A stretch of DNA of 23,686 nucleotides from a virus, in the IMG/VR virus record IMGVR_UViG_3300013093_002166, positions 1-23,686 of that record. One strand, 5' to 3'. A program made the translations under genes and the position numbers. The notes under the pieces were generated by a model, which saw only the letters and a list, made by a program, of their open reading frames with translations, was not told the DNA's origin and ran no database searches. Below, piece after piece: positions 100 through 17,937 of this stretch; within the stretch, counting starts at the first letter, position 1, and every line of letters starts with the position of its first letter.

Positions 100-426
100 T
101 TATACTCGAAAACTTTCACCGCAACCGCAACGGTCACGTTCATTTGGATTGATAAAATCAAATCCTTCATTGAGTCCATTGCGGACCCAGTCTACAGTCA
201 TTCCATTCAAATAAGCGTCTGCTTTTTGATCAACTAAAACTATAAATTCTTGTTGGCTATAATTGATCACACCGACTTCTGCTTCGTATTTGTCAACATA
301 TTCTAGTGTATATGCTAAACCACTACAACCTGTGGTCTTTACACCTATGCGAATACCAACGCCTTTACCGCGTTTGGCAAGATTTTGTTTGATCTTAGCC
401 TTGGCTGTGTCTGTTACGGTAATCAT
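100..426 (-). CDS. iscA: A-type iron-sulfur cluster assembly protein (IscA/HesB family)
   Basis: This 108-residue protein is a full-length A-type iron-sulfur carrier, which in bacteria receives or stores Fe-S clusters and passes them to target enzymes in the cytoplasm. The three family cysteines are present: Cys34 in a TTGCSG motif and Cys100 and Cys102 in the C-terminal CGCG motif. The ATG start overlaps the end of the iscU frame by about 32 bases, so the two are probably translated as a coupled pair. It is the last gene before a consensus promoter that opens the next unit. IscA, SufA and ErpA cannot be told apart by eye; linkage to IscU favours the Isc-type name. In a phage it is an auxiliary metabolic gene, presumably host-derived, that may keep Fe-S enzymes supplied during infection. 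Confidence 0.93.
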   Translation of the reverse strand: MITVTDTAKAKIKQNLAKRGKGVGIRIGVKTTGCSGLAYTLEYVDKYEAEVGVINYSQQEFIVLVDQKADAYLNGMTVDWVRNGLNEGFDFINPNERDRCGCGESFRV

Positions 427-781
427 CTATTGCGGCTTTCACACAATCTTCTGCGAGGATTGAGCAGTGGATTTTAACAGGTGGAAGAGCCAACTCCGAG
501 GCGATGTCGCTGTTTTTAATACTTCGCGCCTCGTCCAAAGTTTTTCCTTTAACCCACTCTGTGACCAAGCTAGAACTGGCGATCGCACTACCACATCCGT
601 ATGTCTTGAAACGAGCATCTCTAATAATACCATCTTCATCTACTTTTATTTGTAATTTCATGACATCCCCACAAGCAGGTGCACCGACCATTCCGGTTCC
701 AACTGTAGGATCTCCTTTTTCAAACGATCCTACATTGCGTGGGTTTTCGTAATGGTCGACTACTTTTTCGCTATATGCCAT
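395..781 (-). CDS. iscU: Iron-sulfur cluster scaffold protein IscU
   Basis: This 128-residue protein is a complete IscU, the scaffold on which a [2Fe-2S] cluster is built from sulfur supplied by a cysteine desulfurase. Residue numbering matches the bacterial family: Cys37 (in APACGD), Cys63 (in YGCGSA), and His105-Cys106 bind the cluster, and Asp39 is present. The LPPVK motif at residues 99-103, which the chaperone HscA recognises in host IscU, is intact, so the phage protein could use the host HscA/HscB release machinery. No cysteine desulfurase (IscS) is seen in the window, so sulfur would have to come from the host enzyme. The ATG lies one base past the stop of the upstream solute-binding protein gene, and the 3' end overlaps iscA. 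All catalytic residues are intact, which argues for a working protein. Confidence 0.95.
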   Translation of the reverse strand: MAYSEKVVDHYENPRNVGSFEKGDPTVGTGMVGAPACGDVMKLQIKVDEDGIIRDARFKTYGCGSAIASSSLVTEWVKGKTLDEARSIKNSDIASELALPPVKIHCSILAEDCVKAAIDDYRNRHSQG

Positions 782-782
782 A

Positions 783-1727
783 TTAGTGTAATTGTATCTT
801 CTTTACCAGCCCAGGTGTAAAGTAATCGGCAAATTTAGTGTAAACTATTTGAGTTGCATCAGCAAAACGAGCTTGTTCTTCTGCACTCATTTTAATAACT
901 TCTATACCATCAGCTTCTGCACGAGCTTGTACTTGCTCAACATCGTCGATACTAATAGCACGTTCATAACGAGCGGCTACTTGAGCACTTTCAGAAACAA
1001 TAGTTTGTAGTTCTGGACTCAATGAATTCCAGAAATCAGTACCAATTAGGATACTTGTTAGGAATAAACTGTGTTCTGTATGGTTAATATAATTACTTAC
1101 TCGTGCTTGATTTAATGCATAGATACGCGGGTATGTGCTTTCTCCGACAGTAACATTTGCATTGCCTAAATTATCTGTCAGCTCTTCTAATTCCATCGGA
1201 ACTACGTCAGCTCCTAATGTTTTGAATGTTTCAATAGCTACAGGGCTAAAACTTGTACGTAATTTTACACCACGCAAATCTTCAATACGGCTAACTGCTT
1301 CGTTTCCAGGAATAATACGGAAACCGCCCGAGTATGTAAATGCTAAACCTTTTACTTTCTTTGACTCTTGCAAACTGTTTAGTAAGCTAGCACCAACTTC
1401 ACCTTCAAATACACGAGTTGCATGATCGTGATCTTTAAACAAAAATGGTAAGTCTAATGCATAAAAATCTTTATTAATCTTACCTAGTGTAATTGTGTAA
1501 GTTTGACTCATTTCAATTGCACTAGCATCTAATAAATCTACTAGACTATGCTTGTCAGGACTAACGCCATTGTTATATTTGTCCCCATATTCACCCATAG
1601 TCATAACTTCTATGTCTAACTCTCCAGGTGCTCTTTTATTCACTTCGTTGGCAAATACTTTGGCCGCACGAATAAACAATTCGATTGGTTCGTGTGCTAA
1701 TACCCATTTTACGTGTTTTGCTGTCAT
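783..1727 (-). CDS. TRAP-type solute-binding protein (DctP-like) lacking a signal peptide
   Basis: The 314-residue product matches the DctP family of substrate-binding proteins of TRAP transporters, which in bacteria bind organic acids such as C4-dicarboxylates in the periplasm. Family features include the LPFLF segment near residue 94, the GGFRIIPGN and LRGVKLRTSFSP segments that surround the usual carboxylate-binding arginine, and the FWNSLSPELQ segment near residue 233. The oddity is the N-terminus: MTAKHVKWVLAHEP enters the mature fold directly, with no hydrophobic signal sequence, and no TRAP membrane subunits are nearby. The protein would therefore stay in the infected cell's cytoplasm, or be a virion component, unless exported by another route. 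A GGAGAT ribosome site precedes the ATG. Ligand and role are unknown. Confidence 0.88.
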   Translation of the reverse strand: MTAKHVKWVLAHEPIELFIRAAKVFANEVNKRAPGELDIEVMTMGEYGDKYNNGVSPDKHSLVDLLDASAIEMSQTYTITLGKINKDFYALDLPFLFKDHDHATRVFEGEVGASLLNSLQESKKVKGLAFTYSGGFRIIPGNEAVSRIEDLRGVKLRTSFSPVAIETFKTLGADVVPMELEELTDNLGNANVTVGESTYPRIYALNQARVSNYINHTEHSLFLTSILIGTDFWNSLSPELQTIVSESAQVAARYERAISIDDVEQVQARAEADGIEVIKMSAEEQARFADATQIVYTKFADYFTPGLVKKIQLH

Positions 1728-10373: not shown

Positions 10374-10402
10374 GGAAATATCCTCTATATAGGATATTTA
10401 TC
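10371..10402 (-). promoter_or_regulatory. Late promoter overlapping an RBS-masking hairpin (tail fibre)
   Basis: GATAAATA (10395-10402, minus strand) is a seven-of-eight match to the T4 late box. AAATATCC (10392-10399) pairs perfectly with GGATATTT (10376-10383), and one further pair (10391 with 10384) leaves a six-base loop. The GAGGA ribosome site lies in the 3' arm. Only RNA starting at the late promoter would lack the 5' arm and be freely translated. This is the second copy of this design in the window. Confidence 0.65.
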
Positions 10403-11120
10403 AGTTATACTTGTAGTATTTCTCCACACGATCCCACCATTTGCCTTCCCAATGGGCAAAATCTTCAGGTTTTAGTATAAATTCCTGATAAACAGGTTCA
10501 TCTATCATTTCTAGTTGTTCGTTCATTTTAGGACTTACACACATTAAAACTACACCTTTTTTAATGTTGCTTCCATAGACTTTGTTGTGTGCTAGTGCGT
10601 AGGCAGTTAATTGAAGATAATAATCCTCAATCCATTCTTCTTTTTTAGGTTTATTAGTTTGCTTGTAATCTAAGATAGCTTCTTCATTTAGATGTAATCC
10701 GCATCCATCAGTAGTTCCAGCATATAGTCCTGGATAATACAATGGAACTTCAACTCCCCAAATTTCATTTATGTTAACAAGTCCTTGAGAAATTACAGTT
10801 TGTGCCATAGCATGGCTTTGCTTGCTGTAAGGATTAGTACCTGGAGGAGTAATTGCACCAGTTTTAACATAGTCTTCTAGAAACTTGTGCATACGTGTGC
10901 CACGTCCGCTTGCTTCTGTTACAATTTCTTGTGCTTTAACTTCGCCTACACGTTTTTTCCAGTTATTAAGAGCATCAATCTTTTCTTGGCTTTTAGTCTT
11001 ATCTAAGATTGTAGTTACACTAGGAACTTTGCTGCCGTCAGGTAACGCATATAAGCGTTTACCTGCTTCGCTTTTACGATCTATTTGGGTATAGACAAAC
11101 CTTTCTGTTAATAAAGTCAT
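10401..11120 (-). CDS. RecB-like PD-(D/E)XK exonuclease
   Basis: The 239-residue protein has the core of the RecB/Cas4-type nuclease family: the RGTRMHKFLEDY segment with His78, TTDG with Asp138, the catalytic strand ILDYKQTNK with Asp151 and Lys153, and the following helix motif LQLTAYALAHN with Gln170. It should be a metal-dependent DNA exonuclease in replication, recombination or host DNA breakdown. I recall close relatives as a conserved exonuclease of T4-like phages from aquatic hosts. A sigma-70-like promoter (11129-11156) lies so close that its RNA would begin only about two bases before the ATG. I see no ribosome site, so the message may be leaderless. Confidence 0.85.
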   Translation of the reverse strand: MTLLTERFVYTQIDRKSEAGKRLYALPDGSKVPSVTTILDKTKSQEKIDALNNWKKRVGEVKAQEIVTEASGRGTRMHKFLEDYVKTGAITPPGTNPYSKQSHAMAQTVISQGLVNINEIWGVEVPLYYPGLYAGTTDGCGLHLNEEAILDYKQTNKPKKEEWIEDYYLQLTAYALAHNKVYGSNIKKGVVLMCVSPKMNEQLEMIDEPVYQEFILKPEDFAHWEGKWWDRVEKYYKYN

Positions 11121-11156: not shown

Positions 11157-11501
11157 CTATTTAAACGCTCTTTTTGTAGCTTGTTTAGCCATTTGAGCAA
11201 CAGAGTCTCCGCCTGTGCCAACTGGATTGTGTATTGTTTCGTCTTCTGGCTCATCTTGATTAGTTTTAACAACCACACCTTTGCCGTCGAACTTATTTAC
11301 TAATTGCTGTAAAGTCGGATCGCTATCGTATCGTGCGGAAAATCTATCGTAATCAATATCGGGTGCGCCATAAGGTTGCATCATTTTATTGATTGCATCC
11401 CAGGTCAAAGACGATGCGACATTGGAATTATTTGCTACAGTTTGTTGATCCCTTAATATAAGAACTAAGGGATCAACGCTTTCACGAATAGTTTGAATTA
11501 C
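11157..11501 (-). CDS. Frame -1 extension of the 329-residue protein, likely reached by frameshift
   Basis: This 114-codon stretch is open in the -1 frame relative to the gene ending at 11498 and has no ATG or GTG near its beginning. The first usable codon is a TTG at 11408 with no convincing ribosome site, but coding-like sequence already begins upstream (VIQTIRESVDPLVLILRD). The later part, TWDAINKMMQPYGAPDIDYD followed by DPTLQQLVNKFDGKGVVV, resembles from memory a small conserved protein of T4-like phages from aquatic hosts, of unknown function. A slippery A-AAA-AAG lies exactly where the two frames can join. If joined, the product is 443 residues. Otherwise this is an 83-residue protein from TTG. 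A homopolymer sequencing error is the main alternative. Confidence 0.6.
   Translation of the reverse strand, partial: VIQTIRESVDPLVLILRDQQTVANNSNVASSLTWDAINKMMQPYGAPDIDYDRFSARYDSDPTLQQLVNKFDGKGVVVKTNQDEPEDETIHNPVGTGGDSVAQMAKQATKRAFK
11444..11477 (-). promoter_or_regulatory. Perfect 12-bp inverted repeat after the slippery site
   Basis: GTTGATCCCTTA (11444-11455) is the exact reverse complement of TAAGGGATCAAC (11466-11477), with a 10-base loop. In minus-strand RNA the stem begins 23 bases after the A-AAA-AAG heptamer. No U-tract follows, so it is not an intrinsic terminator. It could stimulate frameshifting, be an RNA processing site, or mask the TTG start region. Confidence 0.6.
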
Positions 11502-12487
11502 TTTTTTTTTGATGCAAGTAATATGCCTAGTCGACGACTATAGTCGACACTTTCACGTTTTATTCTGCCTTCTTCATCGCCTAACGGTGCTTCACCGCCC
11601 ATTTCTGGTGCCATGCCCATTCCTGGACCTTCTGCGCCTGGAGGAGGAGGATTACCACCAACTTCTGGACCTGCACCCATTGTAGGAGCTTCGCCACCTG
11701 ATAATGTTGATAAGCCTGCTTGTAAGCCTTGACGACTTTGTTCTAAACATGAATAAATTTGTTCCAATGCAGGTTTGACTGAATCTTGGAATTGTTGGGC
11801 AACATCGCTGCCTTGGTTTTCTCTTATAGAGTCTAATAGTTCTAAAAGTTGTTCTGCTTTTAGTTGAGCTGTATCTTCTAACCAGCCTGTAATTCTTTCT
11901 ACCATATCCTTGGCGGCCATGATATTCTTGGCTTTATCTTCTTCGCCTTCTAATAATACATAACTTGCTTGGGATTCGCTTAGGTCATAACGTGTTAATA
12001 ATTCTGCCTTTAATTCGTCTCTATCACTTTCGCCTAGTTCAACTCGTTGTAATGCATTTTCAATCCAGCTCATTGGAACTGAATGAGCGCTTGCGCGAGC
12101 ACGGAATGTAGCATTAACATAGTTTTCTTCTACTGCTTTTTCTTTCTTCTTATCTTTAGCGGCCTTTTTCATTGACTCTTTCTTGTTACCATCTTTATCT
12201 AGATCTATGTAATCTGGTTTTGCGCCTTCATTCATTTCACGCTCAAGTAATTCTTGATTGATGCAATCTAACATGGCACGAGTTTTTTGATAAGTTGTGC
12301 TTTTTTGCATACTTTCAAAGCTTTCACTTACTTCAAATTGACTAATCTTTGTACGTAGTTTGTTACGAGCATCTTCTAATTGTGCTTCTGTAAATTGTTC
12401 TAAGTTTAGTTTATAGCCAAACTTTCTTGCTAAATTTTCGTTTAATTTTTTAGCCGTTACTGGCTTTGATAATTCTCTTAATTGCAT
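11498..12487 (-). CDS. Virion-associated protein candidate with frameshift site at its end
   Basis: The 329-residue protein starts MQLRELSKPVTAKKLNENL, followed by a helical region and a calcium-loop-like DLDKDGNKKES near residues 97-107. A Lys-rich stretch follows, then a long helical part (about residues 125-265), a Gly/Pro/Met-rich low-complexity linker (about residues 270-305), and the tail KRESVDYSRRLGILLASKKK. I recall this architecture as a conserved protein of T4-like aquatic phages without a proven function. The N-terminus resembles the capsid-targeting motif shared by neighbours. A perfect TATAAATA late box lies about 27 bases upstream, so it is a late gene. The reading frame ends in A-AAA-AAG directly before TAA, a strong -1 slippery site. 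Confidence 0.75.
   Translation of the reverse strand: MQLRELSKPVTAKKLNENLARKFGYKLNLEQFTEAQLEDARNKLRTKISQFEVSESFESMQKSTTYQKTRAMLDCINQELLEREMNEGAKPDYIDLDKDGNKKESMKKAAKDKKKEKAVEENYVNATFRARASAHSVPMSWIENALQRVELGESDRDELKAELLTRYDLSESQASYVLLEGEEDKAKNIMAAKDMVERITGWLEDTAQLKAEQLLELLDSIRENQGSDVAQQFQDSVKPALEQIYSCLEQSRQGLQAGLSTLSGGEAPTMGAGPEVGGNPPPPGAEGPGMGMAPEMGGEAPLGDEEGRIKRESVDYSRRLGILLASKKK
11501..11507 (-). other. Candidate programmed -1 frameshift site (A-AAA-AAG)
   Basis: In minus-strand RNA the last codons are UCA AAA AAA AAG UAA, containing the heptamer A-AAA-AAG, the same type as the E. coli dnaX site. A slip of one base back at the last two codons avoids the stop and continues for 114 codons. 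A run of nine A is present (11502-11510). Confidence 0.6.
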
Positions 12488-16984: not shown

Positions 16985-17089
16985 ATGACTGTACTAATAG
17001 ATAAAATTAATGAGATTGAAGAACTTAGTGGTAAAATTGCACTAACTTGTTTATTCATTACTCTGGCATTAACAATAATTACAGCATGA
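16985..17089 (+). CDS. 34-residue single-span membrane peptide
   Basis: Starts MTVLIDKINEIEELSGKIAL with an acidic amphipathic N-terminus, then a hydrophobic span (IALTCLFITLALTIITA) to the end. The stop overlaps the start of the acetyltransferase gene as ATGA, so the two are probably translated together. Function unknown. Confidence 0.52.
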   Translation: MTVLIDKINEIEELSGKIALTCLFITLALTIITA

Positions 17090-17937
17090 AATACGTAGTC
17101 AAAGGCATCACTAATAACGGTGATGTTTTCCGTCCAAGTGATTGGGCAGATAGATTATGCTCGGTACTATCATTATTTGTTCCTAATGCTAAACCTAGAC
17201 CAGTTAATGGTACAAATGTAGCTTTATTTTCCACATTAGTTATGCCAACATTTATCGATGGTGTTAGATCTGTAGTTATCGATAAGAAACTAACCGATAT
17301 AGAACCTTTAGCATTGGATTTTGCTTTGACTTTTGCTAGAGATAATAATCTCACTGTAGAGCATGAGGGTATAAATAAAAATATGATTACTACTAGATTT
17401 TTAACCCCTAAGGAATACAATTGGTACGCCGATTGGATAAAAGAACAAGATGAAGAAACTATCAGATTGTTCTTTGGCATCCCAGTTACTGAATATTTTA
17501 TTGATAACTTAGTTAAAGGTTTTGCCGATAACCCAGATCAACATAACTTTCTAGTAGCAGAACGTAATGGTGTATGGGTAGGTACTGTACATATTGCCAT
17601 TGTTAGCGATACAGACATTGAATTCGGTATCATAGTTGATCATAGCTGTCGTAACCAAGGTATAGCAGACACGATGATGAAAGAAGCTATACAATGGGCT
17701 ACACACCGTAAATACACACATTTGTACATGCATTGCTTATCATGGAATAAACCAATTCGTAACTTATGTGAAAAACATGGGTTGGAAGTTAAAAATTTCA
17801 CTGATGGGAGAGAAGTTGACAGTATTTGTAAATTACCTCCTTTAAGGATTACTTCACAGGTAGGTAAAGAATTTTCAATGAAGAATCATAATTTGTATCG
17901 ACTGATATTACAAAGTGAAGAAGAAATGTTTAGCTGA
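17086..17937 (+). CDS. DUF3579 domain fused to a GNAT acetyltransferase
   Basis: The 283-residue protein has two parts. Residues about 1-95 match DUF3579, a small domain I know chiefly from betaproteobacteria: VVKGITNNGDVFRPSDWADR, then PTFIDGVRSVVIDKKLTDIE and LDFALTFARDNN. After a linker, residues about 105-260 form a GNAT N-acetyltransferase, with the strand HNFLVAERNGVWVGTVHIAI, the acetyl-CoA pyrophosphate-binding motif CRNQGIADTMMKEAIQWA, and a C-terminal LYMHCLSWNKPIRNLCEKHG typical of the fold. The acceptor is unknown. The ATG at 17086 overlaps the preceding stop (ATGA); an earlier TTG reading lacks DUF3579 features. A shadow frame on the other strand is not real. Confidence 0.8.
   Translation: MKYVVKGITNNGDVFRPSDWADRLCSVLSLFVPNAKPRPVNGTNVALFSTLVMPTFIDGVRSVVIDKKLTDIEPLALDFALTFARDNNLTVEHEGINKNMITTRFLTPKEYNWYADWIKEQDEETIRLFFGIPVTEYFIDNLVKGFADNPDQHNFLVAERNGVWVGTVHIAIVSDTDIEFGIIVDHSCRNQGIADTMMKEAIQWATHRKYTHLYMHCLSWNKPIRNLCEKHGLEVKNFTDGREVDSICKLPPLRITSQVGKEFSMKNHNLYRLILQSEEEMFS

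Follow-up and report, generated by a model that had tools for sequence, protein, structure and literature searches.

A conserved nine-adenine recoding site predicted to fuse two virion-protein reading frames in an uncultured clade of lake phages

In phages T3/T7 (10A/10B) and in Lactobacillus phage A2, a −1 shift yields two lengths of the major coat protein with a common N-terminus (PMC5009743), the extension being in most cases Ig-like. Phage lambda uses a −1 shift close to the end of a gene to produce a C-terminally extended form; the two products, gpG and gpGT, associate with the tape measure protein and do not occur in virions (PMC5009743). The dnaX-type signal combines an A AAA AAG heptamer with a downstream stem-loop, and a reversed dnaX layout, in which the zero-frame stop comes directly after the site, has been described (PMC5009743). 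In Thermus dnaX, it is transcriptional slippage on an A/T9 run that generates alternative products from one gene (PMC5009743). Outside these systems, the closest described relatives of the gene studied here are found in RaK2-like phages, where two neighbouring ORFs each start at an ATG, stand in variable relative frame and carry no A9 run.

Herein we analyzed a 23,686-nucleotide stretch of viral DNA (positions 1 to 23,686 of IMG/VR record IMGVR_UViG_3300013093_002166, hereafter the window), in which a first-pass annotation had proposed a programmed −1 frameshift joining two virion-region ORFs. This proposal was supported by a slippery site found in 84 of 84 homologues, a −1 ORF behind it, a downstream hairpin and the separate virion genes of relatives, and at the level of comparative sequence analysis we regard recoding into the −1 frame that joins the two ORFs as established. 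Phage genes that use −1 recoding form a known class, to which the lake-clade gene is thus added. Like the T3/T7 and A2 coat genes, it would specify two lengths with a common N-terminus, although the protein is another structural protein and its extension is winged-helix-like; like lambda gpG/gpGT, the shift lies near the 3′ end of the gene and would extend the product at its C-terminus. With the dnaX type it shares the A AAA AAG heptamer and the downstream stem-loop, while differing in having A9 rather than A7, no upstream Shine-Dalgarno sequence identified, a hairpin 11–23 nt away and a protein that is extended; its run length is that of Thermus dnaX. The limited literature searched contained no previous description of recoding for this gene or its RaK2-like relatives. 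On the sequences compared here, three features stand out as unusual: the site is conserved without exception throughout a diverse uncultured clade, a gene with its own start has putatively been replaced, and the hairpin lies far from the site.

The A9 junction in the lake clade

The genes of the locus lie on the minus strand, which the first-pass annotation had left unstated. ORF1 (11498..12487) starts at an ATG, encodes 329 residues in the zero frame and ends, as had been read before, in TCA AAA AAA AAG TAA (11512..11498). The slippery site TCA AAA AAA AAG (11501..11512) contains an A9 run (11510..11502) with two overlapping heptamers, A AAA AAA (11510-11504) and A AAA AAG (11507-11501), and the zero-frame stop UAA (11498..11500) is flush with it. 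From GTA (11501), the −1 frame stays open for 114 codons up to a TAG (11159..11157), so that the extension occupies 11157..11501 and the fused product would have 443 residues; the chance of the −1 frame being open for 114 codons is ~4e-4. Downstream lies a RecB-like exonuclease (10401..11120, minus strand; phrog_298, E 3e-50), which served as a synteny marker, and the gene order in the window is ORF1, extension, exonuclease, tail spike, nrdA and nrdB, with a nucleotidyltransferase-like protein as a further neighbour of the ORF1 locus. The A9 is the only run of at least eight A or T in the window. Other runs of 8–9 A or T were seen in relatives, at L133:8056, L132:5960 and 6225, L134:2113 and L129:4880 (the last a T run; locus coordinates).

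Four scans of environmental viral contigs, in which the homologues were all recovered through the first half of the gene (ORF1), gave 84 distinct sequences with a complete junction, and thinning to one sequence per 75% identity left 49 representatives. The junction reads [T/C]CA AAA AAA AA[G/A/C] TAA in all 84 homologues and is followed by a −1 frame open for 100–124 codons; the exact site and the −1 ORF also recur in 49/49 representatives, for which the lowest pairwise identity is 43%. The nine A's are constant across the 84 homologues, while the third codon of the site is AAG in 69, AAA in 10 and AAC in 5, and the codon before the run encodes Ser or Pro, with a variable first base and a constant third-base A. 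The run is always A9, or A10 in sequences with AAA as their third codon. Outside the site, AAA makes up 67% of the Lys codons of ORF1, and a Lys-Lys-Lys stretch is spelled AAA AAA AAG at one of 47 occurrences. Since the A's are fixed while the codons vary, and since AAA AAA AAG is rare in the rest of ORF1, the constraint acts on the nucleotides rather than the peptide. All 84 homologues have TAA as their zero-frame stop, whereas the extension stop is divided between TAA (60), TAG (14) and TGA (10).

A homopolymer indel (eight or ten A) had been offered in the first-pass annotation as another explanation of the pattern, and A9 homopolymers are indeed error-prone. However, IMGVR_UViG_3300013094_002159, a second contig of the same phage, carries an identical site, and the same run is found in all 84 distinct sequences from many metagenomes, which led us to reject the indel. 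The −1 frame is moreover under protein-level constraint, and a mistake in sequencing or assembly, or a disrupted gene, is therefore vanishingly improbable. The two halves fused in a single frame, which homologues might have displayed, were found in none of the 84.

Judging from its pattern of divergence, the −1 extension evolves as protein: divergence at the three −1-frame codon positions is 0.32/0.23/0.52, highest at the third, in agreement with the initial impression that the 114 open codons are protein-like. AlphaFold predicts a winged-helix-like fold plus a C-terminal helix for the extension (pLDDT 71), and a structure search of the PDB returned best Z scores of 5.5 or less, with winged-helix domains making up many of the matches. 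Searches of Pfam and of the sequences of solved structures gave no usable match. Taken together, the site is a very clean and deeply conserved recoding signal in an uncultured phage group, of which no cultured member was found in this analysis. Homologue-bearing contigs reach 345 and 356 kb (L056 and L091), and the lake-clade phages are on this basis jumbo phages.

Cultured RaK2-like relatives and the separate second gene

When each half was compared directly with 50,697 phage records by tblastn, no match was obtained, and a search of bacterial genomes gave two short matches only, of ~40 residues; the cultured relatives were reached via a divergent homologue, structure matches and profile searches. 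ORF1 is helical with a Pro/Gly-rich linker and a conserved C-terminal segment (RIKRESVDYSRRLGILLASKKK), and its AlphaFold model is likewise mostly helical (pLDDT 70). The first half matched phrog_14154, “virion structural protein”, in 28/34 members, and its profile found one gene each in six jumbo phages, 121Q, GAP32, RaK2, Vibrio 2.275, Atu_ph07 and Phosso, with E values of 3.5e-11 to 121Q and 4.1e-9 to GAP32. Alignment by hhalign reached 96.5% (E 8e-10). By these profile comparisons, ORF1 is a homologue of the RaK2-like virion structural protein 121Q gp27/CBB_298. Mass spectrometry of purified CBB virions recovered CBB_298 with 10 peptides (36% coverage) and its neighbour CBB_299 with 2 peptides (20% coverage) (PMC5259590 Table 4).

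The first-pass annotation had likened the arrangement to phage tail chaperones. We found no tape measure gene near ORF1, and the site does not lie between a major tail protein and a tape measure gene; the homologues are virion structural proteins encoded beside an exonuclease and nrdA, whereas gpG and gpGT do not enter the virion. We therefore do not regard the gene as a tail assembly chaperone.

In the relatives, the first gene is paired with a neighbour (121Q gp27/gp28, GAP32_293/294, RaK2 ORF135/136, CBB_298/299). This next gene is separate, encodes 107–118 aa and has its own ATG in 121Q, GAP32, RaK2, CBB, Vibrio 2.275, BF, Munch, XaC1 and Hallingskeid; its frame relative to the first gene is 0, 1 or 2, and a Shine-Dalgarno sequence is mostly present. 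The gene after it codes for an exonuclease or a comparable nuclease in the cultured phages, and nrdA comes next in 121Q, GAP32, RaK2 and CBB. RaK2-like phages thus resemble the lake clade in the first protein, probably in the second, and in their order before the RecB-like exonuclease and nrdA. For the extension itself, Foldseek matched A0A2I7S9L4 (118 aa, the length of NVP2275O_026) with a probability of 0.99 and E 6e-3, while hhalign of the extension alone was weak (19–25%) and the extension profile had no match in seven jumbo phage genomes. A fused profile aligned with the concatenated pair to the last residue (E 4.8e-11), a score driven mainly by the N-terminal part. Because the profile was without a match in the seven jumbo genomes, homology of the extension rests on synteny, fold and co-linear alignment; from its position, size, predicted fold and fused alignment, it is probably the orthologue of 121Q gp28/CBB_299.

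This relationship raises the possibility that the lake clade, too, translates the downstream ORF on its own, through reinitiation or coupling, in the manner of the cultured RaK2-like phages, where the orthologous gene has a separate ATG and usually a Shine-Dalgarno sequence (121Q, GAP32, RaK2, CBB, BF, Munch, XaC1 and others). The start sites of the lake clade argue strongly against it. The −1 frame of the window has its first ATG at codon index 39, in line with the earlier remark that no ATG or GTG lies near its start; the ORF as listed begins at an internal TTG (11408), and the first start codon of the −1 frame falls within the predicted domain. No ATG, GTG or TTG is present within the first 15 −1-frame codons in 52 of the 84 homologues, and in the remainder the positions are not conserved. 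An SD-like sequence precedes ORF1 in 84/84, against 3 only for candidate starts of the −1 ORF, so that neither a conserved start codon nor a conserved Shine-Dalgarno sequence for the −1 ORF was found across the 84 homologues. Furthermore, the frame relation is invariably −1 in the lake clade, as opposed to 0, 1 or 2 in the cultured phages. Independent translation is accordingly highly improbable. The downstream ORF with its own ATG and ribosome site, which by the first-pass annotation would count against frameshifting, does occur in distant cultured relatives, as part of another arrangement, and never inside the clade.

Since the second protein has its own ATG in the cultured relatives and no conserved start in the lake clade, we propose a putative replacement of independent initiation by −1 recoding in the latter, where the second protein would be made solely in fused form, joined to the first by the frameshift. 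The Vibrio 2.275 and 121Q proteins, used as scan queries, retrieved close RaK2-like relatives only and no intermediate arrangement. Because the cultured RaK2-like phages keep the two genes separate, the comparison offers a natural before-and-after case of frameshifting versus independent initiation, and the pair of lake and cultured phages yields a testable prediction on the stoichiometry of the two virion proteins. It also has a practical side: gene callers split the lake-clade gene at the stop, and miss or truncate its second half.

The downstream hairpin and the mode of slippage

The perfect 12-bp hairpin that had been pointed out 23 bases downstream of the site is present in the window: the stem GTTGATCCCTTA/TAAGGGATCAAC begins at 11477, 23 nt past the G of AAG, and lengthens to 14 bp with one G-U pair, giving a hairpin at 11444..11477 on the minus strand (stem 11477-11464/11457-11444, loop 11463-11458). 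To place this in the clade, structure was scored over the 72 nt after the site against shuffles that preserve the −1 peptide and codon usage. The mean z was −3.5 for the first 35 sequences and −3.14 for the 49 representatives, of which 5 showed no clear hairpin (z above −1). Window by window along the gene, the signal (mean z −2.85 to −3.67) was found only at 0–60 nt beyond the site, falling to about zero thereafter, and the region upstream of the slippery site gave a weak signal (z −1.3). Immediately 5′ of the A9, at 11531-11549 (minus strand), we also observed a short inverted repeat, GTCGACTATAGTCGTCGAC (GTCGAC...GTCGAC), which is present in part of the clade and was not found to be conserved across all homologues.

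The consensus stem pairs in 74% of cells in 58 unselected segments, compared with 31–43% when slid. In 20 sequences picked for carrying the stem, 93.6% of cells were paired and 5 pairs showed compensatory changes on both sides, with 0/500 shuffles matching the observed values and RNAalifold in agreement; as that selection raises the percentage paired, the 74% is the fairer figure. G-U pairs are common in the stem, which points to an RNA structure rather than a DNA palindrome. Rfam gave no match, and no Shine-Dalgarno-type stimulator was identified.

The hairpin lies further from the site than is customary, as had been suspected. Bacterial −1 signals follow an empirical rule of a structure 4–10 nt after the motif (PMC4066793), and the usual spacing has been given as 5–9 nt, with 11–14 nt known for some other frameshift types (PMC5009743). 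Among 67 sequences, the spacing from site to consensus stem is 11 nt in 36, 14 nt in 18, 23 nt in 10 (window included) and 20–29 nt in 3, and the consensus stem thus lies outside the 4–10 nt that are usual, albeit not strictly required, in bacterial signals; in a few members (L113, L117 and L119) nearer stem starts are found. With a spacing beyond the usual range, contact of the window's hairpin with a ribosome on the site is doubtful, and a hairpin of this type may act with UAA in the A site, stimulate only weakly or serve a different purpose. This purpose could be a separate job in mRNA processing or stability, with slippage arising from the A9 alone, be it ribosomal or transcriptional. The range of spacings, from 11 to 29 nt, and the five of 49 lineages that keep the A9 without a clear hairpin would fit this; on the other hand, the structure signal is confined to just after the slippery site, and lineages whose sequence has changed (L043, L051, L113, L117 and L119) have rebuilt the hairpin in another register. 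We regard a separate job as doubtful.

Overall, the gene probably makes two virion-protein forms by ribosomal −1 frameshifting. Most ribosomes would stop at the UAA right after the A9 and release the 329-residue form, and a fraction would slip by −1 on A AAA AAA/A AAA AAG, resume at GUA and append 114 residues forming the small winged-helix-like domain; the resulting 443-residue form would share its N-terminal part with the shorter one. The downstream hairpin would probably raise the rate of slipping by slowing the ribosome, and both forms would be expected to enter the virion. In E. coli, a cassette with 9 A gave 40% shifting versus 10% for 7 A, although, as far as the text consulted shows, the assay scored proteins and would not distinguish slippage by the ribosome from slippage by the polymerase (PMC3711429); this difference would explain the retention of all nine A's.

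The same fusion protein would result if RNA polymerase added an A on the A9 and the A10 mRNA were read through. Runs of 9 A or T are efficient slippage sites for bacterial RNA polymerase (PMC5009743), and such transcriptional slippage would account for the nine A's being kept in 84/84, beyond the need of one heptamer, for the retention of A9 in the five-sequence AAC class, and for the lineages without a hairpin. The ninth A is, however, also explained by two tandem heptamers, the run is longer than A9 only in sequences with AAA as their third codon (A10), and the UAA is flush with the run in every homologue. Lying 3′ of the run, the hairpin is still untranscribed when the polymerase sits there, and a conserved downstream RNA hairpin is not expected for polymerase slippage of the Thermus dnaX type, yet one is present in most lake-clade lineages. 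We hence consider transcriptional slippage, the main rival, unlikely, and ribosomal slippage to fit best, given a hairpin that is conserved in most lineages, downstream, and unable to act on the polymerase at the run. The combination of long hairpin spacing and flush UAA should itself be useful for telling ribosomal from transcriptional slippage. Bypassing was also considered and set aside, as no gap or matched landing site is needed to join the two frames.

Within ribosomal frameshifting, a more specific scheme can be drawn up, in which peptidyl-tRNA-Lys shifts by −1 with the invariant UAA in the A site, aided by a hairpin 8–20 nt past the stop instead of the usual 5–9 nt from the heptamer, so that two separately initiated genes would have become a clade-wide, ratio-controlled fusion. 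In this full form we hold it to be quite improbable.

Other genes in the window and its relatives

Several further genes were observed in the window. At 100-781 (minus strand), an Fe-S biosynthesis protein (PF01521) and a NifU_N/IscU-like scaffold (PF01592) lie on the same strand with a slight overlap, next to a predicted DctP, a TRAP-type extracellular solute-binding protein (783-1727, minus strand; PF03480, E 1e-50), which on a phage contig is possibly a host-derived uptake gene. At 17047-17937 (plus strand), a DUF3579 domain is fused with a GNAT acetyltransferase domain on the strand opposite to most virion genes.

Among the relatives, a full-length DnaK/Hsp70 (PF00012, E 2e-255) is encoded at L132:8636-10561, with neighbours in L134 and L129, and lies near a putative ClpS-like gene in the same cluster of relatives. 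Curli secretion genes are found in a 48-kb relative (L132:14187-17913), comprising CsgF (PF10614) and CsgG (PF03783, E 3e-47), and in a 64.6-kb relative (L134:9891-12117), the latter assigned by sequence only. They adjoin genes for a secreted curlin-like repeat protein, which has no Pfam match, and for a FecR-domain protein.
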